In this document: in pieces, positions 8,572-27,558 of the stretch
Layout of the letters: each line of letters opens with the position of its first letter
How positions within the stretch are numbered: position 1 is the first letter of the stretch
Source of the DNA: Prochlorococcus marinus str. MIT 0912
GTDB lineage: Bacteria; Cyanobacteriota; Cyanobacteriia; PCC-6307; Cyanobiaceae
Direction: 5' to 3'
Assembly (NCBI RefSeq): GCF_027359595.1
Contig: NZ_CP114783.1
Span: 744,001-808,000 of the forward strand
DNA: 64,000 nt
Made by a program: the position numbers and the translations under genes
Notes under the pieces: generated by a model
The model's database searches: none
The model's input: the letters and a program-made list of their open reading frames with translations, nothing else
Told to the model about the DNA's origin: nothing

Positions 8572-9213
8572 TCAATAATATTTCTCTGACCTTCTAATAG
8601 CTTTGATAGAACCTTTATAATCTCCGATTTTATATTTTGAATCACTAAGAAGCTCAAGTTTTTTTATCACCTCCTCTTTTCTTTTATCACTAATTACTTT
8701 TTTATAATCTGAAATTAAATCATATTTACTTCTACGTATTTTTGAACCTTTAATTAGGGCATTATAGTTGGATCCTAGATCAATTCCAACAAAAGTGCCT
8801 AACAAAATATTTCTGTAATCTATTTTAGTATTATTTAATCCTAATGATTGATCAATTTCTAATAATCGAATTTTTTTTGCTTGCCTTTTATCCTCTATTG
8901 CGCCATGGTAATCTCCATTTTTATATCTAGAATTACTTCTTCCACTAAATGAAATATCTTTAGATCTTTTATGAATAATATCTATTTCAGCTTCAAAAGA
9001 AATTGACCTTGAGAAGTCATCTATAGCGGATAGATTATCTCCCAGTTTATCACTTAAAAAAGCACAATTTAAATATGCCAAAGCAATTTCATCTTTACTT
9101 TCAAGAAGATCAATATTCCTTTTAATGGATTTAATGGCCCAATCATACTCATTTAAATCAATCAAGTTAATTGCTTCATCATAAAAAGATAAAGACTCCT
9201 CTAATTTTTTCAA
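8572..9213 (-). CDS. TPR-repeat protein
   Basis: A 213-residue, highly charged helical protein with degenerate tetratricopeptide-like units, for example YDEAINLIDLNEYDWAI and the C-terminal SKYKIGDYKGSIKAIRRSE. There is no signal peptide. TPR folds usually mediate protein-protein contacts; the partner is unknown. Another TPR protein, on the opposite strand, starts 360 bases further on at 9574. Confidence 0.7.
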   Translation of the reverse strand: MKKLEESLSFYDEAINLIDLNEYDWAIKSIKRNIDLLESKDEIALAYLNCAFLSDKLGDNLSAIDDFSRSISFEAEIDIIHKRSKDISFSGRSNSRYKNGDYHGAIEDKRQAKKIRLLEIDQSLGLNNTKIDYRNILLGTFVGIDLGSNYNALIKGSKIRRSKYDLISDYKKVISDKRKEEVIKKLELLSDSKYKIGDYKGSIKAIRRSEKYY

Positions 9214-9260
9214 ATCATTTCTTAATCCTCTTGATTTTAATCACATTTAAGAAAATCAGC

Positions 9261-9452
9261 TTAAATGTCTTCAAGAAAATATGTAAGAGGGAAGTAACTT
9301 CTAATCAATACGGAGAAGGTGTTTGTCGATTTGTTTTCAAGATAGACGATGAAGGCATAGAGAGGAACAATCAATCGAGATCGGAGGGAAAATCCAACAA
9401 CATTTTGTTTCTGCCAATTAAGTCCGTTCTCAATCCATAAGAATAAAGTCAT
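9261..9452 (-). CDS. Possible small protein (63 aa)
   Basis: An ATG at 9450-9452 preceded by a good GGAAGG ribosome binding site opens a 63-codon frame beginning MTLFLWIENGLNWQKQNVV. It fills an otherwise empty gap between two TPR genes. The N-terminal residues could be an amphipathic or short membrane helix. I do not recognise the family. A competing frame on the plus strand covers the same bases and looks less protein-like. Confidence 0.35.
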   Translation of the reverse strand: MTLFLWIENGLNWQKQNVVGFSLRSRLIVPLYAFIVYLENKSTNTFSVLIRSYFPLTYFLEDI

Positions 9453-9573
9453 GACAATGCCTTCCAAGAAATCTAACAACAAATCAATCTTCCATATTCA
9501 ATCTATGAAAACATTAAAGATATATACAAAAAACAATTTCGGTATTATTCTCAAATGAAATATTTATTAAACA

Positions 9574-10461
9574 ATGAAAACTAAAAACTTATATGCTTTT
9601 CTAATTTCATTTTTAATTATACCTTTTTCTTCAAATTTAGGCATCACTTTTTTCTCTCTATCAAGTGATATTGCATTATTAACAAAAGAGGTAAAAGCAA
9701 CCAATTGGAATACATACAAATTAAACTTTGAAAATGGTTATAGAATGCTTAATAAAGGTGAATATGAAAAAGCAATAGAATATTTCAACAAGGCGATTAA
9801 ACAGTACTCAAGAGAAGGAGCAGCGTACTACAACAGGGGCAATGCATATAGTGAACTAGGAAAAAGTGAAGAAGCGATTAAAGACTATCTAAAGTCAATT
9901 GAATTAGATAGCGAGACAGGGAATCAATATGCTTATAATAATATTTCAATAGAATATGATGCATTAGGAGACTACAAAAATGCTATTAAATATATTAATT
10001 TAGCAATAAAAGCATATCCAAAAGATGGACTATACTTTATGAATCGAGGTTCATATAATTTAGAATTAGAAAATTTCGACCAAGCAGTAAAAGACTATGA
10101 GAAAGCAGGTGAACTGTATTTAAAATATAAAAATAGAACAAGTGGGTATGCAGAATGCCCAAAGAATAAGAATTTAGTTCATTGCCAAATGGATTCCTGG
10201 TACTATTACGATCTTGGTTGGGCAAAAGAAAATCTAGACGATCTAAAAGGAGCACTTGATAATTATAATAAAGCAATTAAAATAAATTTTCCTACTGAAG
10301 AAAAATATTTTTGGTTTAGTAGTCGTGGGGATATTAAATATGAAATTGGAGACGAAGAAGGTGCTTGCAAAGATTACAAATTAGCAGCGTCTTTAGGAGA
10401 TGAAGAAAGAAGTGAATGGTTAAATTCACGAGATGGTAAGTGGTGCAAAAAAATGAATTAA
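9574..10461 (+). CDS. TPR-repeat protein with N-terminal signal/anchor
   Basis: A 295-residue protein with a hydrophobic N-terminus (about residues 5-35) that is either a signal peptide or a membrane anchor. Several tetratricopeptide repeats follow, for example MLNKGEYEKAIEYFNKAI, AYYNRGNAYSELGKSEEAI and a C-terminal GDEEGACKDYKLAASLGD. It is likely located at or outside the cytoplasmic membrane and works as a scaffold; Prochlorococcus has many such proteins. Nothing points to a specific partner. Confidence 0.8.
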   Translation: MKTKNLYAFLISFLIIPFSSNLGITFFSLSSDIALLTKEVKATNWNTYKLNFENGYRMLNKGEYEKAIEYFNKAIKQYSREGAAYYNRGNAYSELGKSEEAIKDYLKSIELDSETGNQYAYNNISIEYDALGDYKNAIKYINLAIKAYPKDGLYFMNRGSYNLELENFDQAVKDYEKAGELYLKYKNRTSGYAECPKNKNLVHCQMDSWYYYDLGWAKENLDDLKGALDNYNKAIKINFPTEEKYFWFSSRGDIKYEIGDEEGACKDYKLAASLGDEERSEWLNSRDGKWCKKMN

Positions 10462-10526
10462 GGAAGAGAATACTTTAATTATTTCACTAAATTCTTTTTT
10501 AAGTTATTGAGTTCATATAAAAAAAG

Positions 10527-10686: not shown

Positions 10687-11712
10687 TCAATCCCAACCTG
10701 CCTTTCTCATAAGATTAATTGCTTTTTTATTATTTGCTCCTAATTGATCAATTGTCACGCTGTCAGGAGTAAATTCTCCAAACTGTGTCACTTCATCCGT
10801 TGTATTAAAACCAACTAAAGGATGTTCAAATGTTGGGCCAGCTAATCCACTACTCCCATTAGGAGAAGCAAGATACTCAAGGAGCTGAATAGCTTCTTCT
10901 TTATTTTCAGCATATTTGGCAATGCCACCTGCACTAACATTTACATGAGCAGGATTGGGAATAAGAACTTTTACTTTTTTAGCCAACCTTTGATCTTTTC
11001 TTCCATTAACACCTGCGAGCATCCTTGAAACATAGTAGTGATTAACTATCCCTACACCACACTTACCTTGAGCCACAGCTCTAATAACTCCGATATCTCC
11101 AGGGAAAAAAGGCTGAGAAATATTTGAAATCATACCTTTTAACCATTCTTTAGTTTTTGCTTCTCCTTTATTGACAATTTGATTGGCAACTAAAGATTGA
11201 TTGTATGGACTACTCCTTTTTCTCACACAAACAAAACCCTTCAAAGAAGGGTTGGCAAGATCTGAATAATCTTTGATTAAATTAACATCAACTTTTTTAG
11301 GATTAGCGACCATAACCCTCACCCTTCTAGTTAAGGCATACCACCTTGCTTGAGGATCTCGATATGCGACGGGAACATTTTTATCTAATTGATCTGATCT
11401 ATATGACTGAAGAAGACCACTTTTTGCAGCATTACTAATTCGGGCTGCATCAACAAGAAGAATGACATCAGCTTTAGAATTTGCACCTTCCCTTTTCAAT
11501 CTTTCAACTAGAGAAATTCCTGTAGCCTCAATTAATCGAATTTTTATCCCAGTCTCTTCGGCAAATTTTTTGTATATCTGCTTATCTGTATTGTAATGTC
11601 TGCCTGAATAAATCCTTACTTCTCTATCAGAAGCCTTTACATGATTAAAACTTGAAGAAGCTAATATAGTTCCTGCTATTACTGAAGTAAAAAGACGCTT
11701 AATTAAATTCAT
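10687..11712 (-). CDS. futA: Iron(III) ABC transporter substrate-binding protein
   Basis: A 341-residue periplasmic binding protein of the FutA/IdiA/AfuA family that delivers ferric iron to an ABC importer. A signal peptide (about 1-27) precedes VRIYSGRHYNTDKQIYKKF, whose tyrosine and histidine are among the family's iron ligands, and a later NHYY supplies further tyrosines. The membrane and ATPase subunits are not nearby. It is divergent from the PKHD-type oxygenase gene, and a shared 148-bp promoter region suggests joint iron control. Confidence 0.92.
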   Translation of the reverse strand: MNLIKRLFTSVIAGTILASSSFNHVKASDREVRIYSGRHYNTDKQIYKKFAEETGIKIRLIEATGISLVERLKREGANSKADVILLVDAARISNAAKSGLLQSYRSDQLDKNVPVAYRDPQARWYALTRRVRVMVANPKKVDVNLIKDYSDLANPSLKGFVCVRKRSSPYNQSLVANQIVNKGEAKTKEWLKGMISNISQPFFPGDIGVIRAVAQGKCGVGIVNHYYVSRMLAGVNGRKDQRLAKKVKVLIPNPAHVNVSAGGIAKYAENKEEAIQLLEYLASPNGSSGLAGPTFEHPLVGFNTTDEVTQFGEFTPDSVTIDQLGANNKKAINLMRKAGWD

Positions 11713-11860
11713 TAATCTATCTAGGGAAGGGATTAATATCTTTCCCTAGACTAGACAAGAAGACACAGCTAAATACAGCTTCGCAACTTTGATACGTACT
11801 AAGGTATAAATTGATATCTTGTTGATACTTTAGGATAGTTATTTAATCTAGATAATAAAC

Positions 11861-15311: not shown

Positions 15312-15420
15312 TAGGAGAACAAGGGGAGAACAGCGATTCAAAACAAACTTAGGAGAACAGATGTGCAATGTGTCAAAAGAACAGAAGGAGAACGAAATCG
15401 CGTTTTTCAATTTGTTCTCC
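15312..15420. repeat. Left arm: GGAGAAC repeats near attL
   Basis: GGAGAAC occurs at 15314-15320, 15325-15331, 15352-15358 and 15387-15393, and inverted (GTTCTCC) at 15414-15420. The first pair, with 11-bp spacing, belongs to a 24-bp block (15312-15335) that recurs at 24112-24135 with two mismatches. Placement inside both cores suggests integrase arm-type binding sites. Confidence 0.65.
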
Positions 15421-15523
15421 CTTTTCTTTCACTCAACTAATCCTATCTATTTGTGTAATCAATGACACGCAAATATCCATGAACAATCAAACAGATCGAT
15501 CCACATTGAGTCATTAATTTATT

Positions 15524-15537
15524 AGTATATATGTACT
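15524..15537. promoter_or_regulatory. LexA-like box, one mismatch
   Basis: AGTATATATGTACT fits the cyanobacterial LexA pattern RGTACNNNDGTWCB with one mismatch in the left half. It lies 14 bases before the DUF1651 start codon. Taken alone it is weak; it gains weight from the better boxes at 16100 and 26885. Confidence 0.35.
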
Positions 15538-15550
15538 ACCGTGTTCTCTG

Positions 15551-15784
15551 ATGAAGCGTGATGGTTGGATTAAAGAAGCAAATGGAAGATGGATATTAAG
15601 GTTTCGCTACGATTGGGAGAGCTGGGAACAGAATCCGAAGGTATTAATAGATAGAGGAAGGTTGATGTCTAATGGTATTCCCTTACTTAAATCAAGAAAG
15701 AGAATGAGAAGAAACCTAGCGATTGTTTTATGGAAGGATCTATTAGCGTCTGGTTGGAAGCGCGTTAATCCTCAATGGGAATAG
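15551..15784 (+). CDS. DUF1651 family protein
   Basis: A 77-residue protein with the pattern of DUF1651, a family I associate with marine picocyanobacteria: DGWIKEANGRWILRF at the start, a central ..DRGRL..NGIPLLKSR.. and a C-terminal LWKDLLASGWKRVNPQW. Its function is unknown. Here it is the first gene inside the left end of the integrated element, reading away from glyQ, and a LexA-like sequence lies just upstream. Its presence hints that the family travels on mobile elements in these genomes. Confidence 0.8.
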   Translation: MKRDGWIKEANGRWILRFRYDWESWEQNPKVLIDRGRLMSNGIPLLKSRKRMRRNLAIVLWKDLLASGWKRVNPQWE

Positions 15785-15909
15785 CGCTAATCTGTGTCCA
15801 AAAACCTGCATAACTGCTTATATGACAGTTACGCAAACCATAAATCACCCTATCAAAACGTAGTTATAGCTTAATCGGGTTATAAAAGAGTTTCAAATGA
15901 GCGCTGTTA

Positions 15910-15963
15910 GGACACGAAATGGACAGAACTGGACACGAATTGGACACAAAAAAGGACATCAAA
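15910..15963 (+). repeat. Iteron-like array of GGACA units
   Basis: Five direct copies of GGACA start at 15910, 15921, 15931, 15942 and 15954, that is, one per 10-12 bases or about one helical turn. The fuller unit is GGACACGAATT-like. Such phased repeats are typical of binding arrays for replication initiators, excisionases or regulators. They sit in a 383-bp gene-free region between the DUF1651 gene and the first LexA-type box. Confidence 0.6.
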
Positions 15964-16014
15964 CACCCTATATATGAATCTGAACACCCCACTATGGGGA
16001 CATCTGCGTCGCTG

Positions 16015-16029
16015 CTTATACGATATAAG
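16015..16029. promoter_or_regulatory. Operator-like palindrome CTTATA-CGA-TATAAG
   Basis: A perfect 6-bp inverted repeat with a 3-bp spacer. Its left side (CTGCTTATA-Y-GA) also occurs near 15808-15819, about 200 bases upstream. A further small repeat, CCCC-ACTAT-GGGG, is at 15987-15999. These suggest a regulatory region before the gene at 16168. Confidence 0.4.
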
Positions 16030-16099
16030 GGTTCAGAGATTTATAATATTATTTTTTTGGAATTTTTTTAGAGGGTAACCAATTCAGCACATAACTAAT

Positions 16100-16113
16100 A
16101 GTACAACTGTTCT
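16100..16113. promoter_or_regulatory. LexA (SOS) box before the first element module
   Basis: AGTACAACTGTTCT matches the recalled cyanobacterial LexA pattern RGTACNNNDGTWCB at every position. It is 54 bases upstream of the start at 16168. A perfect 12-bp palindrome GACGAGCTCGTC follows at 16120-16131. A perfect match is expected roughly once by chance in 64 kb on both strands, so position is the main argument. Confidence 0.55.
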
Positions 16114-16167
16114 TCTTTTGACGAGCTCGTCCAAAACTGCTAGAACTTTATCAGTCACTTTAATGTC

Positions 16168-16815
16168 TTGACTTCATCAGCAATAGAAACTCCTCAATAC
16201 GTAGACGATTACTCCATTGATGAATTGGAGAGCGTGGATTTAAACAGCGCTACTACAAAAGGATTACCAGCTAGTCAAATTCGTTTCGTAAAGACAAGAG
16301 TGCTGAGTGCTAATGAAGCGCTAGCGACAGCGGGTAATGCTATATACGCAGCAGCAAAAGCGCTGGTAGAAATTAAGAAGGATGTAAAGAAAAAGAATTG
16401 GGTAGCACTTACAGACTCAGGTGCTTTGAAGATGAGCGGTAGAAACGCAAGAGATCTAGCAAACGCTTATGAAACTTGGTTGTCCGCTTCAGACATCCCA
16501 GAAGATGCACTATCTCAAGTATCAGCAAGAACGCTAGCGAAGATAGGCAAAGCAGAAGCAGGACAGAGAGTACACGCAATCAATAAGATCAAGAAAGGTG
16601 ATGGATTCTCTGAAGGTGATCTCAACAAGATTCTTAAGAAGAGAAGCAAAGTAACAGTAACTATGGAAGAACTACTAGCTAAAGCAGAGCTAGTATCTAA
16701 GAAGACAAGCGATGAAGATAAGATCGGTAGATTTACAGACATCATGCTAGAAAATATAAAACTCAAAGCAAAGGTAGTTGAGCTAGAAGCACAGTTAGCA
16801 AAAGCTAAAGCTTGA
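16168..16815 (+). CDS. Element protein with C-terminal coiled coil; paralogue of the gene at 24719
   Basis: A 215-residue protein starting at a TTG. The N-terminal 150 residues are clearly related to those of the gene at 24719-25339: shared features include TKGL, a helical segment with ..LV.IK..VK..NW..L..SG.., and a further SA.T.WL.-type stretch. The order of helices faintly recalls DUF3102/KfrA-like DNA-binding proteins, but I cannot prove that. The end (about 165-215) is a coiled coil, ENIKLKAKVVELEAQLAKAK. It is followed by a membrane protein and preceded by a LexA-type box, so it may be an inducible regulatory or DNA-handling protein of the element. Confidence 0.8.
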   Translation: MTSSAIETPQYVDDYSIDELESVDLNSATTKGLPASQIRFVKTRVLSANEALATAGNAIYAAAKALVEIKKDVKKKNWVALTDSGALKMSGRNARDLANAYETWLSASDIPEDALSQVSARTLAKIGKAEAGQRVHAINKIKKGDGFSEGDLNKILKKRSKVTVTMEELLAKAELVSKKTSDEDKIGRFTDIMLENIKLKAKVVELEAQLAKAKA

Positions 16816-16871
16816 TGAGAGTGGGTTAGTACCCATTCGGATATAACTTCTCACACCTACAACTAAATACC

Positions 16872-17210
16872 ATGTCATACTCTTCTCGTGATCGAGATAA
16901 GAAAGTAGAGAGCAGTATTCCTAATTGGGTTGTATATGCTTTGCTCGGTGCAGTTACGTTTCTAATAGTTAATTCAATACATACAGCGCTTCTAACCTTC
17001 ATTGTGTCTGGAGCAGTAATGCTGTTTATCTGGAGTTATATGTCTAAACCTGTAGCAGAGATACAACCTATGAAGGAAGAGAATAGAGATCAGATGAGTC
17101 TATTCACTAAGAACAAAATCAATAGACATACATTCAATAAGAATACAGAAACAAATCCTCAGCGTAAAAGATTCTTGAGATCTATAGACGATATAGATAA
17201 CGCAGCGTAA
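16872..17210 (+). CDS. Small two-helix membrane protein of the element
   Basis: A 112-residue protein with two hydrophobic helices (about 18-36 and 38-55) and a soluble, basic C-terminal tail. The tail ends RSIDDIDNAA; a related SRFIDDLDY motif is found in the protein at 25718, and the Ala-Ala end is shared with several small proteins outside the element's right end. It follows the coiled-coil gene by 56 bases and is probably in its operon. No known family is apparent. Confidence 0.7.
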   Translation: MSYSSRDRDKKVESSIPNWVVYALLGAVTFLIVNSIHTALLTFIVSGAVMLFIWSYMSKPVAEIQPMKEENRDQMSLFTKNKINRHTFNKNTETNPQRKRFLRSIDDIDNAA

Positions 17211-17214
17211 AAGA

Positions 17215-17292
17215 TTAAGGGAGAGATTAAAACCATATGGAGAGCTAATACCACTTAGTAGGTTTTGGGACACCCATCCCTCTCTCCCTTAA
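17215..17292 (+). ncRNA. Candidate structured RNA 1
   Basis: TTAAGGGAGAGA (17215-17226) pairs perfectly with TCTCTCCCTTAA (17281-17292). Inside, AAAACC (17229-17234) pairs with GGTTTT (17261-17266), enclosing a GCTAA/TTAGT mini-hairpin, and GGGA/TCCC (17267-17270, 17277-17280) forms another. This gives a branched 78-nt structure starting 5 bases after the membrane-protein stop. Confidence 0.5.
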
Positions 17293-17306
17293 CACATACT
17301 TCTCGT

Positions 17307-17345
17307 GCCGTCCATATCCCGAAGGACTTAGGACGCGGCTTTTTT
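17307..17345 (+). terminator. Probable terminator of the plus-strand element operon
   Basis: CGTCC (17309-17313) pairs with GGACG (17331-17335), with possible extension through GCC/GGC across a bulge, followed by a run of six T. It lies between the two structured regions. Confidence 0.55.
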
Positions 17346-17358
17346 AATGTCTGAGGAT

Positions 17359-17541
17359 CTTTTAACGTCTTAACCTCATTGGACGAGCTACGCATTAATT
17401 AATCTTTCCCCGAAGCGGCTAAAGCGAGGGAGCTGCTAAGACAACAGTCGCAAACACGAGCAAGCGGCTAAAGCTTGCGAGTTATCCGAGCGAACGGAGT
17501 GAGCGAGAGCGCTTAACCAAAAGAGGTTAAGACGTTAAAAG
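17359..17541. ncRNA. Candidate structured RNA 2, closed by a perfect 19-bp stem
   Basis: A 19-base sequence at 17359-17377 has its exact reverse complement at 17523-17541. The enclosed 145 bases are G+C-richer than anything nearby and hold two hairpins that present the same AAGCGGCTAAAGC 13-mer (17413-17425 and 17462-17474), giving the loop GGCTAAA; the second has a 6-bp GCAAGC/GCTTGC stem. The right arm overlaps the stop codon of the minus-strand gene at 17535. It may be an RNA, a 3' end structure or a DNA site such as an origin. Confidence 0.55.
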
Positions 17542-17690
17542 TCATCCATACCTATATCTCTAAGTGTCTTCTCGTATTCATATAAAGAGACACCCATTGT
17601 ATTAGCTCTGATCATTCTTATCTGCTGATCTGATAGATCCGCTTTAAGACTGAATGCTTCCTTTACTTTTTCCCTGTCTTTCTTTGTCAT
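17535..17690 (-). CDS. Small element protein (51 aa)
   Basis: A 51-codon frame on the minus strand, starting MTKKDREKVKEAFSLKADLS and ending IGMDDF. It looks helical and soluble. Its start lies inside the end of the preceding 53-codon gene, an overlap of 47 bases, which points to a compact phage-like operon of four or more overlapping small genes. No family recognised. Confidence 0.5.
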   Translation of the reverse strand: MTKKDREKVKEAFSLKADLSDQQIRMIRANTMGVSLYEYEKTLRDIGMDDF

Positions 17691-17805
17691 TGTTCTTTCT
17701 GTCAAATACCTCATCTATTAGTTTCTTGTATTGATCGGAACTCATACCCATGTCAAACGCTCTAACGTCTCTCATGGTTTGTTCTACATAATCCATGTTA
17801 TTCAT
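17644..17805 (-). CDS. Small element protein (53 aa)
   Basis: A 53-codon frame beginning MNNMDYVEQTMRDVRAFDMG. It is mostly charged and helical. Its ATG overlaps the TAA stop of the upstream 51-codon gene (17798), which supports translational coupling. Function unknown. Confidence 0.5.
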   Translation of the reverse strand: MNNMDYVEQTMRDVRAFDMGMSSDQYKKLIDEVFDRKNNDKERQGKSKGSIQS

Positions 17806-17953
17806 GAGCGCTTATAAGTAGAGATTGCTTTGTATAGGGTTTATTTGCAAAGAGATGTCTATCATCTCTAGGAGCTTTAGCTTTTAGGTATTGATTCAAG
17901 TGCTTAGCAGGTGCAGCGCTGCTAATCTTAAGTGACTTGGTAGTGTATTTCAT
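17798..17953 (-). CDS. Small element protein (51 aa)
   Basis: A 51-codon frame beginning MKYTTKSLKISSAAPAKHLN, basic and without hydrophobic helices. Its stop overlaps the next start. It follows the 56-codon gene by 25 bases. Basic charge would fit nucleic-acid binding, but that is a guess. Confidence 0.5.
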   Translation of the reverse strand: MKYTTKSLKISSAAPAKHLNQYLKAKAPRDDRHLFANKPYTKQSLLISAHE

Positions 17954-17978
17954 TGTTTGTGCAAATTAAAATGTTAAT

Positions 17979-18149
17979 TTATTGAGGTTTACATATCCAC
18001 TCTTCAAGCATCGCTTGTGCGTAGGGATGATTGCGCGCGCTTTGGTGTCTTGATATCTGTCTGTAAGCAGACTCGGTAATCTTCCCTTCTGTCCAAAAGC
18101 GGATGTTGTCTGTATGTGGAACTGTCTCTCTATGTTGAGAATGATTCAT
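17979..18149 (-). CDS. Small element protein (56 aa)
   Basis: A 56-codon frame beginning MNHSQHRETVPHTDNIRFWT and ending EEWICKPQ, rich in histidine and aromatic residues. It lies 27 bases after the stop of the 291-residue protein, on the same strand. No family recognised. Confidence 0.5.
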   Translation of the reverse strand: MNHSQHRETVPHTDNIRFWTEGKITESAYRQISRHQSARNHPYAQAMLEEWICKPQ

Positions 18150-18176
18150 ATACTTATTGGGTGGGTGGTGCAGTAA

Positions 18177-19052
18177 TTAGTTAGTAGTTAGTTCTTTTGT
18201 TGGTTGCGATGCTATATGTGCAATGTTCCATAGATCAGACTGTGCTTCTTTAAGTATTGAGATAATCTTTTGATCCTTCCATACTTCACGATCTAACTGC
18301 TTAGCAAGAGACACAAGTTCTCTAGCTATAGATTCCTGAGTTACTTCTTTAACCTCAGTAGATTCAATGGTAATTGCTTCTTGATTGTCTGGGACTAGAT
18401 GAAGTTGAGATAATGGATTCTTCTTTCTACCTCTTGTCTCTTTTGTGTTTAGTGGGTATTCCTTTTTAAGTTGCTCTAATGCTTTGTACGTTAAAGGTTT
18501 ACCTATAAAGGAATCAGTCTTTGAATCCCATTGCTTTGTGTCTTCCTGATACCTCATCGCTTTAGCGATACCTTGATCAGTCATACCGCTAAGAAGGTAT
18601 TGAGAAGAGATAGGTAGAGTTAAGACAAACTCATAGATCTTAGCGATCCTTTGGTTAACTCCATACTTTCTACCTTTATATAATCCCTCTTGTAACCGCT
18701 TTTGGAATTCTGCAGCGGCTATAAGTTTATAGACATTACTTGGTTTAAATCCTCTTTCCTTTAATCCTTCTATCAACTGTTTTCTTAAGCGCTTAGCTCT
18801 GTAGTTGAATTGGTTATATGTTTCATCTGCTGTCAGTTTGTCTGTGTAGTTAAACCAGTTAACAGCAAACTCTAATGCTAATGATCCATACCTAATCTCT
18901 AGTTCTGTTGTCTTCTGTTTGAATTCCTCCAAACCTTTTAAGACTTCAGGACGTACAGTATCAAAGATGTTATGTAGATCAGTTTCATATCTGAAATCAT
19001 TATCACCTAGATCATTCTTAGGGGTAAATGTATTAATTAAATCGGATGTCAT
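18177..19052 (-). CDS. Element protein of unknown function (291 aa), possible DNA binder
   Basis: A 291-residue, mainly helical protein. Basic helices occur around residues 84-130 (RAKRLRKQL..GLKERGFKPSNVYKLIAAAEF), a helix-turn-helix-like spacing. A TRGRKK patch at 206-211 resembles an AT-hook, and the end is amphipathic helix. It is the largest gene between the small-gene block and the RNA polymerase, and its ATG overlaps the stop of the 51-codon gene upstream (ATGA). A role in replication, partition or transcription of the element is plausible but not demonstrated. Confidence 0.75.
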   Translation of the reverse strand: MTSDLINTFTPKNDLGDNDFRYETDLHNIFDTVRPEVLKGLEEFKQKTTELEIRYGSLALEFAVNWFNYTDKLTADETYNQFNYRAKRLRKQLIEGLKERGFKPSNVYKLIAAAEFQKRLQEGLYKGRKYGVNQRIAKIYEFVLTLPISSQYLLSGMTDQGIAKAMRYQEDTKQWDSKTDSFIGKPLTYKALEQLKKEYPLNTKETRGRKKNPLSQLHLVPDNQEAITIESTEVKEVTQESIARELVSLAKQLDREVWKDQKIISILKEAQSDLWNIAHIASQPTKELTTN

Positions 19053-19204
19053 TTATTCAACGTTGAATAGTTTAATGCTTTGCTTGTGGTGTATATAGTC
19101 TTGATCTTGTATGTATAAGTAGTTCTGTCGTCTGTTAAGACGGCAATCCCCTTAGTACATACTGTTAAACCTTGATCTTGTAGAGGTGAACCGACGCTGT
19201 TCAT
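19049..19204 (-). CDS. Small element protein (51 aa), possibly the 3' part of a broken gene
   Basis: A 51-codon frame beginning MNSVGSPLQDQGLTVCTKGI, whose stop overlaps the start of the 291-residue gene. Upstream, the same frame stays open for another 21 codons and then meets a TGA near 19268, beyond which a 21-codon frame beginning MKSILKPVRNSLTWLLRALG runs in phase. It could be one longer gene interrupted by a stop codon. Function unknown. Confidence 0.45.
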   Translation of the reverse strand: MNSVGSPLQDQGLTVCTKGIAVLTDDRTTYTYKIKTIYTTSKALNYSTLNK

Positions 19205-19433
19205 TTCGTCAGTTAACAGTCTGAGAATTATGGATCTACCTTGAATCCCTTTGCATATAATTCAAGTTCCTAGAGCTCTCAGCAACCAAGTCAAACTATT
19301 CCTAACTGGTTTTAGTATTGACTTCATTTATTTAGACAGGGTATCAACCTGTAAAAGCAGCGCTTCACGCTTCTTTCTCTATTAGACTGTCTAGTTAGTC
19401 GCTGAGATCCCAGTAAATACGTTAGAGAATATA

Positions 19434-21875
19434 TTAATTGAACATATAAGTAGAGTTTAGAACCTCTTCTAACACCCCTGTACCCTGCTCTAAGCGTGGT
19501 AGTTGCTCCTCTGTGACTCCTAAGTCATCCGCTAAGCGCGCTAATGGATCACCGCTGCATACATTATGAAACCCATGTCTGATTCTCTTCTTAGCTAGAT
19601 CTAAATCATTAGGTAGAACTTTAAAACAATCATGCACTACTACTAAAGGTTTACTCCAATCTTGGAAAGCAGACTTAAGAACACAAGAGTCATAGCTATG
19701 TACAAAATCAGGAGCTAGACTTGTCTTCATTCTGTTGTATGCAGGTTCTTTAATCTCTGTTAGTGGGATAGTGATCTTACCTAGATATGTTGAAGTGATT
19801 CTCTTAGTTACTTGCTCAACCTTTAATAAGTTGATTGAGTCAAGGTTAGGAGTATTCCAAGTAAATGAGGTATTACCATTCTTCTGTGCTATCCGATATA
19901 AATCTTTAATCCAGTCAAGCGCTTCAAACGCATCTGGGAATACTTGCTTACTTGCTTCTCTAAGTATTGAACAAATATCTGATACCGCTTGATAATCAAT
20001 CTTGTTAGGGAATAAACCTTGAGCTATGAAATATTCTTTTATCTCTCTTCTATTAGTCTGAAGCGTTGCTCCATAGATAACTTTCATCAGGATGATCTTA
20101 CCTAATGCTCTGTCTTCTAAGTAATCCGCTAACCATCTATGACTGTGAGATCGGTAAGCAATGTGTCTAGCAATCTTTAATACCTCTTTGTATGCGTCTC
20201 TAGGTGGATCGTTTATATCCTTAGGTGCAAATAGATTAGAAAATTCCATACCCTTAGGATCGCGTCTCATAGCGCTTAGAAGTTGCAACCCTGAGCTAGT
20301 AGCATCTGCTCCTATTGGGACATCCCATAAAGGTTTCTGCTTAGTTAATACAACTTGATTCCATTCCAGAGCGAGTTGTAGAAATTGCCACGGTTTATCT
20401 GCTTGACTCCATTCATCTATTAAACCTAAAGGAGTATTAGCTATTGCTTGTAAGAGTTCTTTATTCTGATAAGTCCATTTACTTCTATCTTCATAGTTAA
20501 CTTTACTTCCTATGAATGCTTCCCCTACTGCTTGCGCTGCATATTCTTCACCGCTTTTATCTAACTTGCATCCATCTGAGAAGGTTATAAGAGAGCGCTC
20601 AAAGTCTGAAGAATCCTCATGTAGAAATGATTGTTGAGGATACATCCTACCTCTGTAATCGCAGCTCCAACTTAAATAGAAGCGCGATTCACTCATGAAC
20701 TGCTTAGCAACAGTAAGAGCTAGTCTTGTATTCCTACTCTTAGCGATTGCTTCTCTATGCGCTACATGTATTTGATGAGTTTCATCTACCCATGCTTTTC
20801 TAAGTGGATCGCTTTTATCTTTGCTTGATAGATAGGAAGGCATTCTTTCATGCAATCTAGGATGATCAAAGACAGCATTAAAAGAACCGATAGTGTAACC
20901 CTTTTCTAAGCAGCGGTAAGCAAGATTGAAGACAGTATGATCTACATTCCAAGCAGTTCTACTTAGTGTGTTGAGTAGATTAATTGCATCAGTTCCAAAC
21001 TTAGTATCTGAATAGAAACTCCTACATAGATTTAAGTTTGTTCTAAACCATTCTTGGTAATATCCTCCTGAGTTGTTATGTCTTGATGCTCCTGTTTGCG
21101 ACTCCCATTCTTTAGGAATATCAATTAGTGGATACTTAAATACTTCTCTTTCTTCTAATGCTGTTTGATATTTGATTGACTGTGCTTTGACTTGCTCGCT
21201 TAGTCGGTAGTAAGTCTGTTGTTTCTTACCTGTTCTAAGTGGATATGATTCAACGATTCCAAATGATTCAGCAACGTGTAAGACAAACGCTCCAACATGA
21301 AATCTATCGCTGTCTTTCCAGTCTTGGAATAGTTCTTCTTTACTCCAGTCATGCTTATTAGTAAGCAACTTCTGTGCTGTCTGTTTCGCTCCCTGTCGTC
21401 TGTAACTGGGTGTTGAACCCTTTGTGTTGTTCTGCTTGTGTATCGCTGCTACAACCTCGTCTGGAGCGCGCTGATAGTAGAACTCATTACGCATCTCATC
21501 TTCTAGTCTTCTCCCTATCTTCTTGAATCCTTCCTGTACTTTTGGTTTACTACCTTCACATGTATAGAAAGAATCGAAGATAGTAATTAGTGAGATATAA
21601 GAAACTAAATCAGGATCAACTAAGTATTCAAATAATTCTTGCATCTTCCTGAAACCTAAGGAGAGCGCGCTAGTTGTTGCTCTTCCTCTTGCTTTCTTAC
21701 CTGTTGCTTTTACTAACTCTTGTCCAAAGGGTTGAACATATTGTCTAACAAAGTCATTAGCAAATCCTGTGCTTGAACCGTAGTTCTTATCTTGTGCTTG
21801 TCTTAAATCCTTTCTTAATTTATCTGTCGCTAATCTACTTAGCGTTATCTCATGATTTACTTGTCTGTTATTCAT
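19434..21875 (-). CDS. Single-subunit DNA-directed RNA polymerase, T7 type
   Basis: An 813-residue protein aligned by eye with phage T7 RNA polymerase (883 residues). SCDYRGRMYP (404-413) matches the T7 DWRGRVY element. The metal-binding aspartate of motif A is D524 in GADATSSGLQLLSAMRRD; motif B, R-x3-K-x7-YG, is R589, K593, Y601 with exact T7 spacing; and the motif C aspartate is D749 in VVHDCF, with the FVHS histidine at 726. The enzyme therefore looks active. It would transcribe from its own promoter class, which I could not identify. It lies between a terminator and the 291-residue protein gene, with a plausible AAGG ribosome binding site. Confidence 0.95.
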   Translation of the reverse strand: MNNRQVNHEITLSRLATDKLRKDLRQAQDKNYGSSTGFANDFVRQYVQPFGQELVKATGKKARGRATTSALSLGFRKMQELFEYLVDPDLVSYISLITIFDSFYTCEGSKPKVQEGFKKIGRRLEDEMRNEFYYQRAPDEVVAAIHKQNNTKGSTPSYRRQGAKQTAQKLLTNKHDWSKEELFQDWKDSDRFHVGAFVLHVAESFGIVESYPLRTGKKQQTYYRLSEQVKAQSIKYQTALEEREVFKYPLIDIPKEWESQTGASRHNNSGGYYQEWFRTNLNLCRSFYSDTKFGTDAINLLNTLSRTAWNVDHTVFNLAYRCLEKGYTIGSFNAVFDHPRLHERMPSYLSSKDKSDPLRKAWVDETHQIHVAHREAIAKSRNTRLALTVAKQFMSESRFYLSWSCDYRGRMYPQQSFLHEDSSDFERSLITFSDGCKLDKSGEEYAAQAVGEAFIGSKVNYEDRSKWTYQNKELLQAIANTPLGLIDEWSQADKPWQFLQLALEWNQVVLTKQKPLWDVPIGADATSSGLQLLSAMRRDPKGMEFSNLFAPKDINDPPRDAYKEVLKIARHIAYRSHSHRWLADYLEDRALGKIILMKVIYGATLQTNRREIKEYFIAQGLFPNKIDYQAVSDICSILREASKQVFPDAFEALDWIKDLYRIAQKNGNTSFTWNTPNLDSINLLKVEQVTKRITSTYLGKITIPLTEIKEPAYNRMKTSLAPDFVHSYDSCVLKSAFQDWSKPLVVVHDCFKVLPNDLDLAKKRIRHGFHNVCSGDPLARLADDLGVTEEQLPRLEQGTGVLEEVLNSTYMFN

Positions 21876-21935
21876 ACGATTAAATTACCTTATATTTATT
21901 GATATGGAATAGTGTCTTGCGTTATCAATGACAAT

Positions 21936-21964
21936 TAAAAACCCCGCTTATGACAGCAGGGTTA
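21936..21964 (-). terminator. Terminator between the small membrane gene and the RNA polymerase gene
   Basis: On the minus strand AACCCTGC, a loop and GCGGGGTT followed by T's form a hairpin and U-tract. It ends the transcript of the 51-residue membrane protein, so the polymerase probably has its own promoter in 21876-21936. Confidence 0.7.
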
Positions 21965-21971
21965 GAGTTTA

Positions 21972-22127
21972 TTAAAAGACAAATGCTGAGATAATAGCAG
22001 TAGCACTTAGATAGAAGAGAGTCATAGTTGCTTTCTCTTGTGCTTGAAGTCGCTTGTCTAATCCCTCAGCGGTTTTAAGTAGCTCAGGTTTGAGCATTTT
22101 AGATAAGACACGAGTTGATGAAGTCAT
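21972..22127 (-). CDS. Small single-helix membrane protein (51 aa)
   Basis: A 51-codon frame beginning MTSSTRVLSKMLKPELLKTA and ending with a hydrophobic helix, LFYLSATAIISAFVF. The N-terminal half is an amphipathic helix. The arrangement (short soluble helix plus one C-terminal membrane helix) could be a membrane anchor or toxin-like peptide. It has its own terminator and lies between the integrase and the polymerase. Confidence 0.55.
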   Translation of the reverse strand: MTSSTRVLSKMLKPELLKTAEGLDKRLQAQEKATMTLFYLSATAIISAFVF

Positions 22128-22315
22128 TTGAAGTGAGTGTGTGAATGAGTTCCAAGCGCGAAGCTTGGGAATACGAGCAATTAGTGGATGAACTAAAACC
22201 AGAGCTGTCTCTTACTCGTTTGAATTGGATGTATTAACCTTCTTTCCTAAACCTTTTGCTTAATCTCAGAGCGTATCGGTGAGTTAAGCATTACTAATAT
22301 AGCATATAAACATTG

Positions 22316-22340
22316 AAAAAGCACCCATTACTGAGTGCTT
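22316..22340 (-). terminator. Terminator after the 20-codon hydrophobic frame
   Basis: On the minus strand AAGCACTC-AGTAAT-GGGTGCTT followed by T's. It closes whatever is transcribed leftward from 22369-22431 and possibly from the integrase. Confidence 0.65.
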
Positions 22341-22368
22341 AGGGAGTTATTCGATTGTGGTGAATGAT

Positions 22369-22431
22369 CTAGACGTTAGTTACCGTAATAAGAATGACTT
22401 GAAGTGCGATGAGAGTGAAAAGAGTAACCAT
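22369..22431 (-). CDS. Possible 20-residue hydrophobic peptide
   Basis: A 20-codon frame, MVTLFTLIALQVILITVTNV, is almost wholly hydrophobic, has a GAGGATTA ribosome binding site and is followed by a terminator. The size is at the limit of what can be believed, but the three signals together are suggestive of a small membrane peptide gene. Confidence 0.35.
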   Translation of the reverse strand: MVTLFTLIALQVILITVTNV

Positions 22432-22518
22432 TAATCCTCACATTAAATGGGTTCAATTAAATAAAAGCGTGATTGTGTCCACATTGCTAACCAATATATT
22501 CAGATTGCTAAGTGTCTA

Positions 22519-24072
22519 CTACTTAATCTTAAGCGGATTAGATTTATTTTTACTTTGCTTCAGTGATTCCTTCGGTTTATCAGAGAGTTTAGTTCCATCT
22601 AAAGCTAACTTATCCCAATCATCTACATTCTCTAAAGACATTATTACTTTCTTTTCTTTCTTCTTACCTATTGTTCTAGATACTGCTTCTGCTGTTCTCT
22701 TCCTTACATCAGAGCGATCATAGTGACGTTGCAACATCTCTAAGCTATGTCCTGTGATCTTCTTAATTAAGTAGATGTCTTTACCTTCATCAATCTGATT
22801 AGTTATGTAAGAGGAGCGCAAAGAGTAGAGAGTGTATTTCTTATCTGATCTAACAGGAGATAATACTAAAGATAAGTTAGTTCTAAGATCACTCCAAGCT
22901 AGAGAGAACTGTGAATAGGGATAAGGTTTATCAGTATGAGGATTGAAGAATACATAATCTTTTGGAGTTACCTTTCTCAATCCCACTTGTCTTCTATATT
23001 CATTAACGTGTCTTCTCCATCTGCTTAGGAATTCTGTACAGTTGCAAGGTATATCACGTGTTTCTCCTGTCTTGGAATAACGAATAAAGAGATTAGTGAT
23101 AACGATATCTATATACTTCCCTGTCGCTGCATTCATATTGAATGAATCCTGTATCTCTATATCCTCCCAACGTAATCCTCCTTTAAGAACTCTTTTAATT
23201 ACGTATGATCCATCACTCTGTGCTTCTCTTATCTTCTCTTCTTTCCCTACTAATTCACTAGGACGAGCACCAGTATTGTATAAGACAAGAATTAGTGTTC
23301 TGAATAATTCTCTCCAATAGTGATTCCTTCTCCAGTTATTAGTTTTAGTTTCCTCCTTTACTGCTTCATCACTCCATTGCTTTAAGTAACGATGAACATG
23401 TCCCCATTGATCTAAAGGTATTGGTGGGTTTGCATCTAATTCATCTTTCCTTTGTTTAATGATTTCAAAGGTAGGTTTTAGATCTATGTACTCCTTATCG
23501 TTTAGATATTTAAACCATTCAGCAAGATGAACTATATCTCTCTTAACTGTTGAATCCTTTGGAATTATGGTTTTACCTCTTGAGTTAGGGATTAGTTTGA
23601 ACCCTTCATTCTTTCTCCATCTACTGAAACTCTCAAAGGTATCTCTCTTTATCTGATCTACATATGTGATCTTCTTCTCTTTGGTTATAAAGAGTATTCC
23701 AGCATTCTGAAGTGAACTAACCTTAGCTCTAAGAGTAGTTAAAGCCATACTCCCTGCTCTATTCCGCTCTTCATTCAAAAGTATCCATTCCTTAATTAGA
23801 TCAACTACCTTATACCTTCTTACTGGTACACCCTCTTCATCTATATCTCCCTGAAATGCTAAATATAAATCCTCTGCTTTAAGTATTGCTCTCTTCTCAT
23901 CGAGTTCATCTAAGCATCTAACTATATACTTACTACCCTTCGCTTTATTGTTTACTCGATACTTGAAATACCAAGAAGTTGGACGCCCTTCAAACATATA
24001 TATCTTGCATCTACCACCCAAGACATCGCGGGCTAAAGGTGCACCATTTTCATCTCGTGCTACCTTGCTCAT
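22519..24072 (-). CDS. Tyrosine recombinase (integrase) of the element
   Basis: A 517-residue tyrosine recombinase. Catalytic residues visible: R270 (TGARPSE), K334 (YSKTGETR), R419 (LYSLRSSY), H442 (TGHSLEM) and the nucleophile Y451 (QRHYDRS). The usual first histidine of the H-x-x-R box is a tyrosine (Y416). A large N-terminal region (1-210) should hold the arm- and core-binding domains. The gene sits at the right end of the element with its start 40 bases from the GGAGAAC repeats, the normal place for an integrase beside its attachment site. It should carry out insertion at, and excision from, the glyQ 5' end. Confidence 0.95.
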   Translation of the reverse strand: MSKVARDENGAPLARDVLGGRCKIYMFEGRPTSWYFKYRVNNKAKGSKYIVRCLDELDEKRAILKAEDLYLAFQGDIDEEGVPVRRYKVVDLIKEWILLNEERNRAGSMALTTLRAKVSSLQNAGILFITKEKKITYVDQIKRDTFESFSRWRKNEGFKLIPNSRGKTIIPKDSTVKRDIVHLAEWFKYLNDKEYIDLKPTFEIIKQRKDELDANPPIPLDQWGHVHRYLKQWSDEAVKEETKTNNWRRNHYWRELFRTLILVLYNTGARPSELVGKEEKIREAQSDGSYVIKRVLKGGLRWEDIEIQDSFNMNAATGKYIDIVITNLFIRYSKTGETRDIPCNCTEFLSRWRRHVNEYRRQVGLRKVTPKDYVFFNPHTDKPYPYSQFSLAWSDLRTNLSLVLSPVRSDKKYTLYSLRSSYITNQIDEGKDIYLIKKITGHSLEMLQRHYDRSDVRKRTAEAVSRTIGKKKEKKVIMSLENVDDWDKLALDGTKLSDKPKESLKQSKNKSNPLKIK

Positions 24073-24081
24073 ATAGATGAG

Positions 24082-24135
24082 GGAGAACTGATCTAGTTAT
24101 ACTATACCTAATAGGAGAACAAAGGGAGAACAACG
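24082..24135. repeat. Right arm: GGAGAAC repeats upstream of the integrase
   Basis: GGAGAAC at 24082-24088, 24114-24120 and 24125-24131. The last two, 11 bp apart, lie in the 24-bp block 24112-24135 that copies 15312-15335 with two mismatches. Probable integrase arm-type sites, which would also overlap the integrase promoter. Confidence 0.65.
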
Positions 24136-24160
24136 TTTGAGATCCCTTGCTATGACTGTG

Positions 24161-24665: not shown

Positions 24666-24718
24666 CATTGTTCCGATTCGTCACAAGGCGTATATTAAAT
24701 GCGTATTTAGCTAAACCC

Positions 24719-25339
24719 ATGGAATTATCGCCCACGGAGGTGGTTGACTTAGCGAATATTCCGCTCAACAGCGAAGTCACCAAGGGGCTGGTGCCCGCAC
24801 AAGTAGAGTACGTCAAAGAATCTGTCGCAGAAATAAACGAAGAACTGAGCTGCGTTGGGCAATCACTAAGAGCCGTGGCGGCCAACCTCTCCGACATAAA
24901 GAGCAACATCAAGCCTGGGAACTGGAGAGCCTTCTTGAAGTCAGGAGCGATCAACTGCTCAGAACGTTTTGCTATTGACCTCGTAAGTGCATACACAAAC
25001 TGGTTAGGTGGCTCTGATATAGACGACAACATGCTTGCTTCACTAACGCCCAGATCGTTAGCATTGATGGGAAGCAAAGGCGTGACTGACAAGGAGCGGC
25101 AAAAGGTATTTGATGCCGTTGGGAACGGCGAAAGAATGACAGAAGCGACTGTAAGAATCCTGGTGAAAGGGAACAAGAAAAAAGCCAGCAAAGCCTCACA
25201 AAAAAGTGAAAGTGAAAAGATTAAATCACTGAAAGAAAAGATCGAGACTTACAAAAAAGTCATTAATAACCTTCAAGATGAAAATAAAAAACTTAGTAAA
25301 TTACTATCAAATAGAGAAAAAATTGAGTCCCTTGTCTAG
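24719..25339 (+). CDS. Paralogue of the element coiled-coil protein
   Basis: I start this at MELSPTEVVDLANIPL (206 residues); the frame is open from 24668. Residues 1-150 align with the element protein at 16168, including TKGL, the NW-containing helix and a TPRSLALMG segment opposite ARTLAKIG. The last 45 residues are a lysine-rich coiled coil (KIKSLKEKIETYKKVINNLQ). Base composition changes abruptly within the gene: about 50% G+C up to roughly 25190, then 20-27%. It opens a run of small genes and has a LexA-like box upstream. Function unknown; probably the same as its paralogue. Confidence 0.75.
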   Translation: MELSPTEVVDLANIPLNSEVTKGLVPAQVEYVKESVAEINEELSCVGQSLRAVAANLSDIKSNIKPGNWRAFLKSGAINCSERFAIDLVSAYTNWLGGSDIDDNMLASLTPRSLALMGSKGVTDKERQKVFDAVGNGERMTEATVRILVKGNKKKASKASQKSESEKIKSLKEKIETYKKVINNLQDENKKLSKLLSNREKIESLV

Positions 25340-25342
25340 GAA

Positions 25343-25555
25343 GTGTTACAAGAAAGCAAACCTCCACTACTATTATTAAAAATGAAAAGCACCAACTTTA
25401 GCTCTGGGATCTCTAAACAAATTAAATCTAAAAATGAAGAGACCCACAACTTAGAGAAAGGAATTAATAAGGCATTACTAGAGAAATATAAGCCAAAAGT
25501 TCTGTACAAAATAGAGAACTCGAACAAAAAGAAAGTACAAAGGAGAGTAGCTTAA
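25343..25555 (+). CDS. Small basic protein ending Val-Ala
   Basis: A 70-codon frame from a GTG, or 57 codons from the ATG at 25382. It is lysine-rich and helical, ending KKVQRRVA. It starts 4 bases after the coiled-coil gene and precedes the next start by 5 bases, so it belongs to the same operon. No family recognised. Confidence 0.55.
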   Translation: MLQESKPPLLLLKMKSTNFSSGISKQIKSKNEETHNLEKGINKALLEKYKPKVLYKIENSNKKKVQRRVA

Positions 25556-25559
25556 GATT

Positions 25560-25721
25560 ATGAATAAGAATTCAAAGTCTAGGAATGGATTAATCCATTT
25601 ATACAACCCCAAGAAAGAGGGGTTAGGATCTTACGACGTACACTATATAAATGCCTACAAAAAAGAAAAATGTTTAAAAAATAATCTAAATAAACTTGAT
25701 AATGAGAGGTATGCAGCATGA
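25560..25721 (+). CDS. Small protein ending Ala-Ala (53 aa)
   Basis: A 53-codon frame beginning MNKNSKSRNGLIHLYNPKKE and ending NERYAA. Its stop overlaps the next ATG (ATGA at 25718-25721), which supports its being translated. It has no hydrophobic segment. Function unknown. Confidence 0.6.
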   Translation: MNKNSKSRNGLIHLYNPKKEGLGSYDVHYINAYKKEKCLKNNLNKLDNERYAA

Positions 25722-26038
25722 TTCCATTTATCAGAAGTCTTTCAGAGCTAATGGCTATTACAGAGTCAAGAGAGAGCCAAAGGCATGTCTCTCAATACAA
25801 TGAGAGCTACAGCTCGCAAATAGATAGTGGACAAAGAAAACGATACATAAAGTCTCTTAACAAGAAAGAAGTAGACCTGCCTGATTTACCTAAAAGAATA
25901 CGGCGTAAATGGATGCAAAATAAAAAATCTTTATCAAGATTCATTGATGATTTAGATTATAATAATCAAATACAATCTTCCTATGATCTCACCTTAATAG
26001 AAAGACAAAATAAGAGAACTCAACAGGATGTCGCCTAA
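25718..26038 (+). CDS. Small protein ending Val-Ala (106 aa)
   Basis: A 106-residue charged protein. The segment SLSRFIDDLDY resembles RFLRSIDDIDN near the end of the element membrane protein at 16872, so the two may share a short domain. It ends QQDVA. Its start overlaps the previous stop and it is followed 2 bases later by the next gene. Function unknown. Confidence 0.6.
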   Translation: MIPFIRSLSELMAITESRESQRHVSQYNESYSSQIDSGQRKRYIKSLNKKEVDLPDLPKRIRRKWMQNKKSLSRFIDDLDYNNQIQSSYDLTLIERQNKRTQQDVA

Positions 26039-26040
26039 TT

Positions 26041-26382
26041 ATGAAAAAGATTAAAATAAATCAGGTTATAGAGTATTTATCCCCGACATTGGTTTTCTCA
26101 TATTTTTTTATTCATAATATTTTTCTAGTACTGATTGGTATTACATTTTCATTGTATTCAATAAATATTAATATGATTAATAATCTAAAAAAATCTATGA
26201 ATAAAAATTTTGGTATAAAAAATGAATCCAAAGATTCTAATAAAAATAATAAAGAAAACAATTCAAATGCTATTAATATAAAATCTACCAAAGAAGAAAC
26301 CAAGCTTACATTAGTTGAAGAAATAGAAGAATTTGGATTTATACCATCAATAGATAAGAAAAATAATTCTAATGCAGCATAA
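26041..26382 (+). CDS. Small membrane protein ending Ala-Ala (113 aa)
   Basis: A 113-residue protein with one or two hydrophobic helices (about 15-45) and a long polar tail rich in Asn, Lys and Glu, ending NNSNAA. The plan (N-terminal membrane hairpin, polar tail, Ala-Ala end) is that of the element protein at 16872, though the sequence identity is low. It is last in the run of four small genes after the coiled-coil protein. Confidence 0.6.
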   Translation: MKKIKINQVIEYLSPTLVFSYFFIHNIFLVLIGITFSLYSININMINNLKKSMNKNFGIKNESKDSNKNNKENNSNAINIKSTKEETKLTLVEEIEEFGFIPSIDKKNNSNAA

Positions 26383-26491: not shown

Positions 26492-26686
26492 ATGCAAGTG
26501 GATCCAAAAAGAGTAGAGGATTTATTAGTTAAAGGTTTATCTCATATTTTAAAAAGAACAGTAGAGGTCGGCCCGAGGGATCAATTAGCAATTGCACAAG
26601 AGTATAAAGAATGGATAAATTGCATATCTGCTAGTGATTTCTCAGAGCAAGAGATTCTAGTAATAGATAAGTTTACATTTACCTAG
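26492..26686 (+). CDS. Small protein, YKEWI family (64 aa)
   Basis: A 64-residue acidic protein. Its core, LSHILKR..., IAQEYKEWI and SEQEILVIDKF, resembles the 66-residue protein at 29680 (LYQEFKEWI, ESQEILCLRYL), so the two look like paralogues of a small unnamed family. The region from 26687 to 26872 that follows is very AT-rich and holds no gene I can see. Confidence 0.5.
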   Translation: MQVDPKRVEDLLVKGLSHILKRTVEVGPRDQLAIAQEYKEWINCISASDFSEQEILVIDKFTFT

Positions 26687-27342: not shown

Positions 27343-27558
27343 TCATTTATCATTATTTACTTGATACGAATTCGGAGCAAGTATTAAAAATACTATCCAC
27401 CAAACAAGAATAAAAAAAGCTAAAATAGAAGTTATTATAGTGTTATTTAAAAGTTTAAAACTGAAAATAAGAACTAAAACTCCAAAGCTAATAATTGACC
27501 AAGGTTGACACCAATTAGGCTTTGAATCCCAAAAACTTTTTTTTGCATTTGTATCCAT
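27343..27558 (-). CDS. Small two-helix membrane protein (DUF6737-like)
   Basis: A 71-residue protein. The N-terminal FWDSKPNWCQPWSII and two following hydrophobic helices resemble a small cyanobacterial family that I recall as DUF6737; the number is from memory. Probably an integral membrane protein of unknown function. It lies 44 bases past the end of the repeat-protein gene on the same strand. Confidence 0.65.
   Translation of the reverse strand: MDTNAKKSFWDSKPNWCQPWSIISFGVLVLIFSFKLLNNTIITSILAFFILVWWIVFLILAPNSYQVNNDK

Follow-up and report, generated by a model that had tools for sequence, protein, structure and literature searches.

A 64,000-nucleotide stretch of DNA (the window) contains an integrated element of about 8.8 kb with a T7-like RNA polymerase of its own, and two regions of this element are structured. 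The region termed R2, located between the genes for the polymerase and for p291, qualifies by its covariation as a conserved structured RNA with stems kept by compensatory change. The region at 17211-17541, put forward as a possible element-encoded RNA in the first-pass annotation, probably is a 3'-end and terminator module between two convergent transcription units. As had been suspected, the element does bear a structured RNA, yet the one with the best support is R2, about 1.6 kb further along, and not 17211-17541.

An integrated element with its own RNA polymerase

The host, a picocyanobacterium, has a chromosome of 1.9 Mb (G000), and an IsrR RNA is located at 4668-4851. The borders of the element were taken from an att-like direct repeat (15312-15338 and 24112-24138, 89% identity), and the gene adjoining the border is glyQ (NCBIfam name). 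A sister element, L072 (contig name: uncultured Prochlorococcus AG-404-B19, L143), also adjoins glyQ; the border repeat was looked for there and not found, so the borders are defined from the window only. Since the repeat is taken as the border, 17211-17541 lies in the left third of the element and not at its centre, where it had first been placed.

Table 1. Features of the element and of its structured regions (positions are those of the window).
Feature	Position	Strand	Context or evidence
Integrated element, about 8.8 kb	15312-24138		adjoins the 5' end of glyQ; bordered by a 27-nt direct repeat
L-box, A/T-rich	15985-16080	+	adjoins hairpin A in relatives, 1.1 kb off in the window
p215, function unassigned	16168-16815	+	paralogue at 24668-25339
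p112	16872-17210	+	stop codon adjoins the structured region
Hairpin A, 12-bp closing stem	17215-17292	+	fold, shuffles, relatives
Terminator-like hairpin, then T6	17308-17346	+	fold; not listed in the terminator scan
C-box, left copy (left arm of the 19-bp stem)	17358-17384	+	conserved in relatives
Lineage-specific insert, two GGCTAAA hairpins	17398-17507	unspecified	match in L072
C-box, second copy, inverted	17516-17542	-	overlaps the end of p59
p59, small ORF	17535-17714	-	stop (17535-17537) borders the structured region
p291, predicted all-helical core	18177-19052	-	fold prediction
R2, structured RNA, about 175 nt	19178-19353	-	upstream of p291, between polymerase and p291; covariation
T7-like single-subunit RNA polymerase	19434-21875	-	phrog_414, E 1.3e-137; PF00940, E 1.5e-36
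Tyrosine recombinase (integrase)	22519-24072	-	PF00589, E 2.6e-8; phrog_1, E 3e-24

The plus strand of the element encodes a DUF1651 gene, p215 and p112, and the minus strand the tyrosine recombinase, the polymerase, p291, small genes and, as the last one, p59. No match was found for p215 in Pfam and NCBIfam, and fold searches returned nothing at E ≤ 0.001 for p215 in the PDB and for p291 in the PDB and BFVD. Relatives of p59 with 41-76% identity are encoded in L073, L075, L076, L084, L086 and L087, and further relatives in L280 and L284. At the left end of the element (15905-15965) are five repeats of the TGGACA/AGGACA type, spaced about 10-12 bases apart, which are perhaps iterons or binding sites. 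Adjoining the element is a second cassette (24668-26382) with a p215-like ORF (31% identity) and small ORFs; p215-like ORFs are present in 28 of 41 genomes of the genus. Two overlapping frames of a short tandem repeat, with EEDKPV and KINLLK units, were seen at 27515-28088 on the minus strand.

The polymerase is 36-51% identical to eight polymerases of other elements, and 37 of 400 family genomes gave polymerase matches at E ≤ 0.001, of which many are remote or fragmentary. The element belongs to a group found in Prochlorococcus and Synechococcus (according to contig names), whose members are small, integrative and carry a T7-like polymerase of their own. The element shares a single-subunit RNA polymerase with the T7-like cyanopodoviruses P60, 9515-10a and P-SSP10; however, identity to phage enzymes is only 24.7-26.9% among the best 20 phage matches listed, no virion gene was noticed among the ORFs of the element, and neither the R1 model (see below) nor the R2 model gave a convincing match in the cyanopodovirus stretches searched. 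When viral contigs were searched with a single polymerase protein no relative was found; a search with an alignment of nine polymerases yielded 75 loci, the best with 37% identity (L155), the others with at most 32% and phage-like. L155 (IMGVR_UViG_3300043395_003452) also contains an ORF (9212-10495) that looks tyrosine-integrase-like by eye, and R2 was not found there. In a search for a repeated polymerase promoter within the element, scores above 16/20 were confined to the att-like repeat and the sequence around it, and other matches were taken as chance without a shuffle control. ATCTGTT is a T7 pause motif; it was seen twice towards the left end of the element and is absent from 17211-17541.

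In the part of the description drawn on here, the tycheposons of Prochlorococcus have sizes of 4-200 kb (PMC10872708), a range that includes the 8.8 kb of the element, and integration, a tyrosine recombinase and variable cargo are common to both. Compared with that part of the description, the element is distinguished by a border repeat that lies beside glyQ, with no tRNA gene, and by its T7-like polymerase (PMC10872708). The three tRNA genes of the window are located at 10526, 55559 and 58810, none of them at the border repeat (15312/24112). A literature search, with preprints and most subscription papers outside its scope, found no title naming such a polymerase element or RNA.

The structured region lies between two convergent genes

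The region 17211-17541 exactly fits the gap between the stop codons of p112 (17210, plus strand) and p59 (minus strand), and, as described before, it is not explained by any gene. Both perfect stems of the first description are present: the 12-bp closing stem of hairpin A (17215-17226/17281-17292) and the 19-bp stem of a 183-base unit, which is the perfect outer part of a 22-nt inverted repeat with 95% identity (17359-17380/17520-17541). The high G+C content was confirmed as well, with 54% at 17400-17499 and 29-49% in the other 100-base bins of 15800-19199. The 13-mer AAGCGGCTAAAGC occurs twice, within a direct repeat (17413-17432/17462-17481), but of the two GGCTAAA hairpins reported there the minimum-energy fold of the plus strand contains just the first one; the second has 6 bp when folded alone and also forms in the minus-strand DNA fold. 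Likewise, the reported terminator does consist of a hairpin followed by T6, but its stability is not above that expected from composition (z -0.8/-1.1 against shuffles), and a scan of 16800-19500 for terminators of stricter shape did not list it. Among the entries of that scan, however, is the second GGCTAAA hairpin as read from the minus strand (17478-17460).

Folding energies were compared with those of 200 dinucleotide shuffles on both strands. The z scores were -3.6 (plus) and -3.0 (minus) for 17211-17296, -5.2 and -6.2 for 17359-17541, and -4.5 and -5.6 for the whole of 17211-17541; folded as single-stranded DNA, the minus strand of the 183-nt unit had a z score of -4.3. The interior of the 19-bp stem alone behaved like shuffles (z +0.4), and the fold excess of the 183-nt unit therefore stems from the outer stem.

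The proposed comparison with Rfam did not identify a family: no match at the gathering score was found in Rfam 15 for this region or for R2, six relatives included, and matches at E ≤ 5 were sub-threshold and chance-like for both. The Rfam cyanobacterial RNAs (Yfr series, IsrR), like the two regions structured and noncoding in picocyanobacteria, are among the families that had no match in either region at that score. A Yfr11 RNA was seen at a contig end near another polymerase element (L146:10668-10720).

Hairpin A, a terminator-like hairpin and the C-box form a shared module

Pieces homologous to the left part of the region were found in G161, G206 (two loci), G366, G027 and G357. Common to the relatives are hairpin A, a spacer (AAGTAAATAA), a hairpin with T-run at the same place and the C-box (GCTTTTAAHGNCATCACCTNNTTGGNC); the L-box before hairpin A is also common to several of them. 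In the window p215 and p112 stand between L-box and hairpin A, and the part of the L-box at 16040-16074 is 86% identical to L084:13401-13433, where hairpin A begins at 13405.

A covariance model (R1) was built from five relatives with the window excluded, and it recovered positions 17258-17384 of the window with 31.2 bits (E 4.6e-5 in 404 kb). Among 400 family genomes it detected 25 places in 22 genomes at E ≤ 0.05, and 13 of the 14 places inspected were judged to be real, the remaining 11 (≤24.6 bits) being treated as chance without inspection. A place in G333 that overlaps a tRNA-like gene region was taken for chance. Real places were found in G206 (four, one with the left half only), G366, G027, G161, G357, G233 and the window. 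The left half and the C-box are separable, since G206:C51 and G360 contain the left half only, while G328 and G302 have only a C-box with p59. The module is preceded by cynS in G366 and lies between argJ and a small ORF in G357.

All ten instances of hairpin A fold as a hairpin, eight of them with z ≤ -2.0 (range -1.3 to -5.1). The arms differ strongly among the instances, those of the window cannot be aligned to the others, and G-U pairs occur on the plus strand in G366 and G233. A stem predicted throughout despite such different arms, together with these G-U pairs, speaks for hairpin A acting as an RNA on the plus strand. RNAalifold, applied to an alignment of six module sequences, returned an unrelated helix of 5 pairs across the terminator, which was discarded. 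The terminator core TCC-ATA-TCC-N4-GGA-CTTA-GGA is present in five of eight instances, carries one change in G233 and is different in G360 and G366; only one of the eight terminator hairpins of the relatives is below z -2, that of G360, which has no T-run.

The C-box is conserved as sequence and not as a stem

A C-box pattern gave 13 matches at ≤5 mismatches in 23 loci (329 kb), with one place counted twice (L007, L282) and none outside a module or half of one. Because these loci were themselves the source of the pattern, only its absence elsewhere and its copy number are informative. Compensatory changes in the 19-bp stem had been named as the mark of an RNA. Such changes were not observed: the arm is kept as sequence in 11 loci, and an inverted partner is present in two of them. 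This was determined by searching for the inverted 19-nt arm within 600 nt in the 11 C-box loci and in 200 shuffles. The partner has no mismatch in the window and two in L086 (G206); the other nine loci have 6-9 mismatches out of 19, equalled by 12 to 200 of the 200 shuffles. The 19-bp stem thus consists of two inverted copies of a box that is conserved in sequence, and nine of 11 loci lack the pair. In L086 the two copies lie 371 nt apart and enclose a small ORF, p64 (L086:13419-13625), so that the corresponding slot is coding in one relative, which goes part of the way towards the outcome that was to speak against an RNA; an ORF related to p64 is located at 26492-26686 of the window. The integron attC core follows the rule RYYYAAC/GTTRRRY (R'/R''). 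Judged by eye, the arms CTTTTAAC/GTTAAAAG depart from it, and the recombinase of the element matches phage integrase profiles.

The GGCTAAA hairpin pair of the insert between the C-boxes recurs in only one sister element, L072. Positions 17400-17507 are 72% identical to L072:2773-2881, which equals the best coding segments between both elements (64-72%). With the L072 insert as query, four of 400 genomes matched: that of the window, G129 itself and two with matches of 25-27 bases. The left edge of the insert (up to 17424) also resembles the flank of p64 in G366 and G027. MAGCGGCTAMAGC has three occurrences in the genome, two of them within the region, and is therefore not a genome-wide repeat.

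R2 is a covarying RNA upstream of p291

The gap between the polymerase and p291 is conserved despite stop codons in all frames. In an alignment of nine sequences (A8) four helices were found, in which 86.9% of the cells are paired compared with 64.1% in shuffles, a value that none of 500 shuffles reached. Double changes were counted in 43 cells (16.1 in shuffles, 0 of 500 reaching this number) and in 15 of 22 pairs (9.9 in shuffles, 2 of 500 reaching it). Sliding the partners by one column lowered the pairing to 43-53%. With the arms phased by hand, which favours pairing, 45 of 45, 62 of 63, 60 of 60 and 50 of 52 cells of the helices are paired; recombining the arms across sequences gave 55-66%.

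A model of R2 detected members in 23 of 330 family genomes from 10 genera at E ≤ 0.05, seven of the 23 having been used for the model. Fifteen members outside the model have 93.9% of their cells paired, where shuffles have 62.2%, and show double changes in 96 cells (30.7 in shuffles), spread over 20 of the 22 pairs; these values come from an alignment that was fitted to the model and leans toward it, with relatedness not removed and four rows (L307, L308, L310, L315) gappy or doubtful. Subject to the same lean, there are 28 G-U pairs but only 7 A-C mismatches, which points to the strand of p291 as that of the RNA. Of the 27 places 24 were examined for neighbours, and in 18 of these 24 loci R2 is directly followed by a p291 relative encoded on its strand. 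A polymerase match lies near R2 in nine of the 24 (upstream in eight, downstream in one), and since the flanks cover ≤1.5 kb an absent neighbour is a weak sign. G161 holds two copies of R2 (L084:8409-8547 and 11586-11761), one of which adjoins a broken polymerase gene. R2 had no match at E ≤ 1 in the 1.05 Mb of the 75 viral contigs that carry a related polymerase, nor in the stretches searched from three cyanophages.

Alternative explanations for the region 17211-17541

Taken together, the comparisons make it somewhat probable that 17211-17541 is a convergent terminator module with a cargo slot rather than a conserved RNA. Transcripts of p215-p112 would meet hairpin A and then the terminator-like hairpin with its T-run, both of which may work as RNA on the plus strand, in termination and 3'-end protection, while transcripts of polymerase-p291-p59 would reach the region from the opposite side. 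Of the proposed element-encoded RNA, this reading keeps a 3'-end structure made up of hairpin A and the terminator, but not the 19-bp stem. The C-box after the terminator is kept as sequence, and a second, inverted copy sits on the end of p59, so that both could form the 19-bp stem; the slot between them holds a lineage-specific insert with two like hairpins and, in one relative, a small gene. The interchangeable neighbours at the module edges (p215-p112, cynS, p64) suggest that the module may double as a cargo slot. Like intrinsic (rho-independent) terminators between convergent genes, the module lies between two stops and has a G+C-rich hairpin with a T-run on the plus strand; unlike them, it adds a conserved upstream hairpin and a conserved 27-nt box after the T-run, its hairpin is modestly stable, and the minus-strand unit has no T-run. 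How the leftward unit terminates is not accounted for, as the minus strand lacks a T-run behind the structures, although the scan picks up the second of the GGCTAAA hairpins on that strand. A further point against the terminator module is that the insert, although noncoding, is 72% conserved, which calls for more than a passive spacer.

This conservation, together with the strong folding of the 183-nt unit on both strands, would be accounted for if 17359-17541 were a functional small RNA closed by the 19-bp stem, in which the GGCTA(A/C)A loops would do the work, for instance as sites for protein binding. Hairpin 2 has one pair that is changed on both sides between the window and L072 and still pairs, and the loops are changed alike; with only two sequences, however, covariation of the insert hairpins is unprovable. 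We regard a small RNA as unlikely, as the closing stem is missing in L072 (by inspection) and unpaired in nine of 11 C-box loci, the interior alone resembles shuffles in the window and in L072 (z +0.6 in the latter), no further close copy was found among the 400 genomes and Rfam offers no match. Slightly more doubtful still is that the C-box is a DNA site for recombination, replication or packaging, with the inverted pair forming a cruciform or bounding an invertible or exchangeable cassette. Its conservation as sequence and not as pair, its changing neighbours (p64, the two-hairpin insert, p59, other genes) and the small ORF enclosed by the inverted pair in L086 are consistent with such a site. 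But the recombinase has its own att-like repeat elsewhere. Moreover, a C-box query gave only short, chance-level matches in 50,697 phage records, and the single match of the pattern in the viral contigs was read as coding and due to chance, so no site shared with a helper phage was seen. The R1 model had one match, with E 0.23, in the stretches of three cyanophages, and neither 16800-17900 nor the left half of G206:C51 had a DNA match in the phage records. A spacer-terminator pattern matched 50 stretches of the viral contigs, none of which resembles the module, and a single match to GGCTAMA was judged to be unrelated. It is very improbable that 17359-17541 is a non-autonomous, MITE-like transposon: its 22-nt inverted repeat could serve as terminal repeats, and G206 has a different interior between related ends, but the unit is present in a single copy in its own genome with no dispersed copies, in nine of 11 loci the left end stands at this place with no right end, and no target duplication was seen in the sequence.

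Implications for the polymerase elements

With the convergent terminator module as the preferred reading, the region first singled out is mostly explained as gene-end architecture, and a tempting false lead is removed. A more speculative proposal, to which we give little weight, is that the elements carry a two-part RNA programme, in which R2 would control p291 or work with it in trans, and the C-box and GGCTA(A/C)A hairpins of the convergence-point module (17211-17541) would be bound by a protein of the element (p291, p59) or by the polymerase. If true, this would constitute an element-encoded RNA regulatory system outside the families searched. p291 is an obvious candidate partner of R2 and, if transcribed, R2 would define a new family of RNAs linked to mobile elements in very abundant phototrophs of the ocean.
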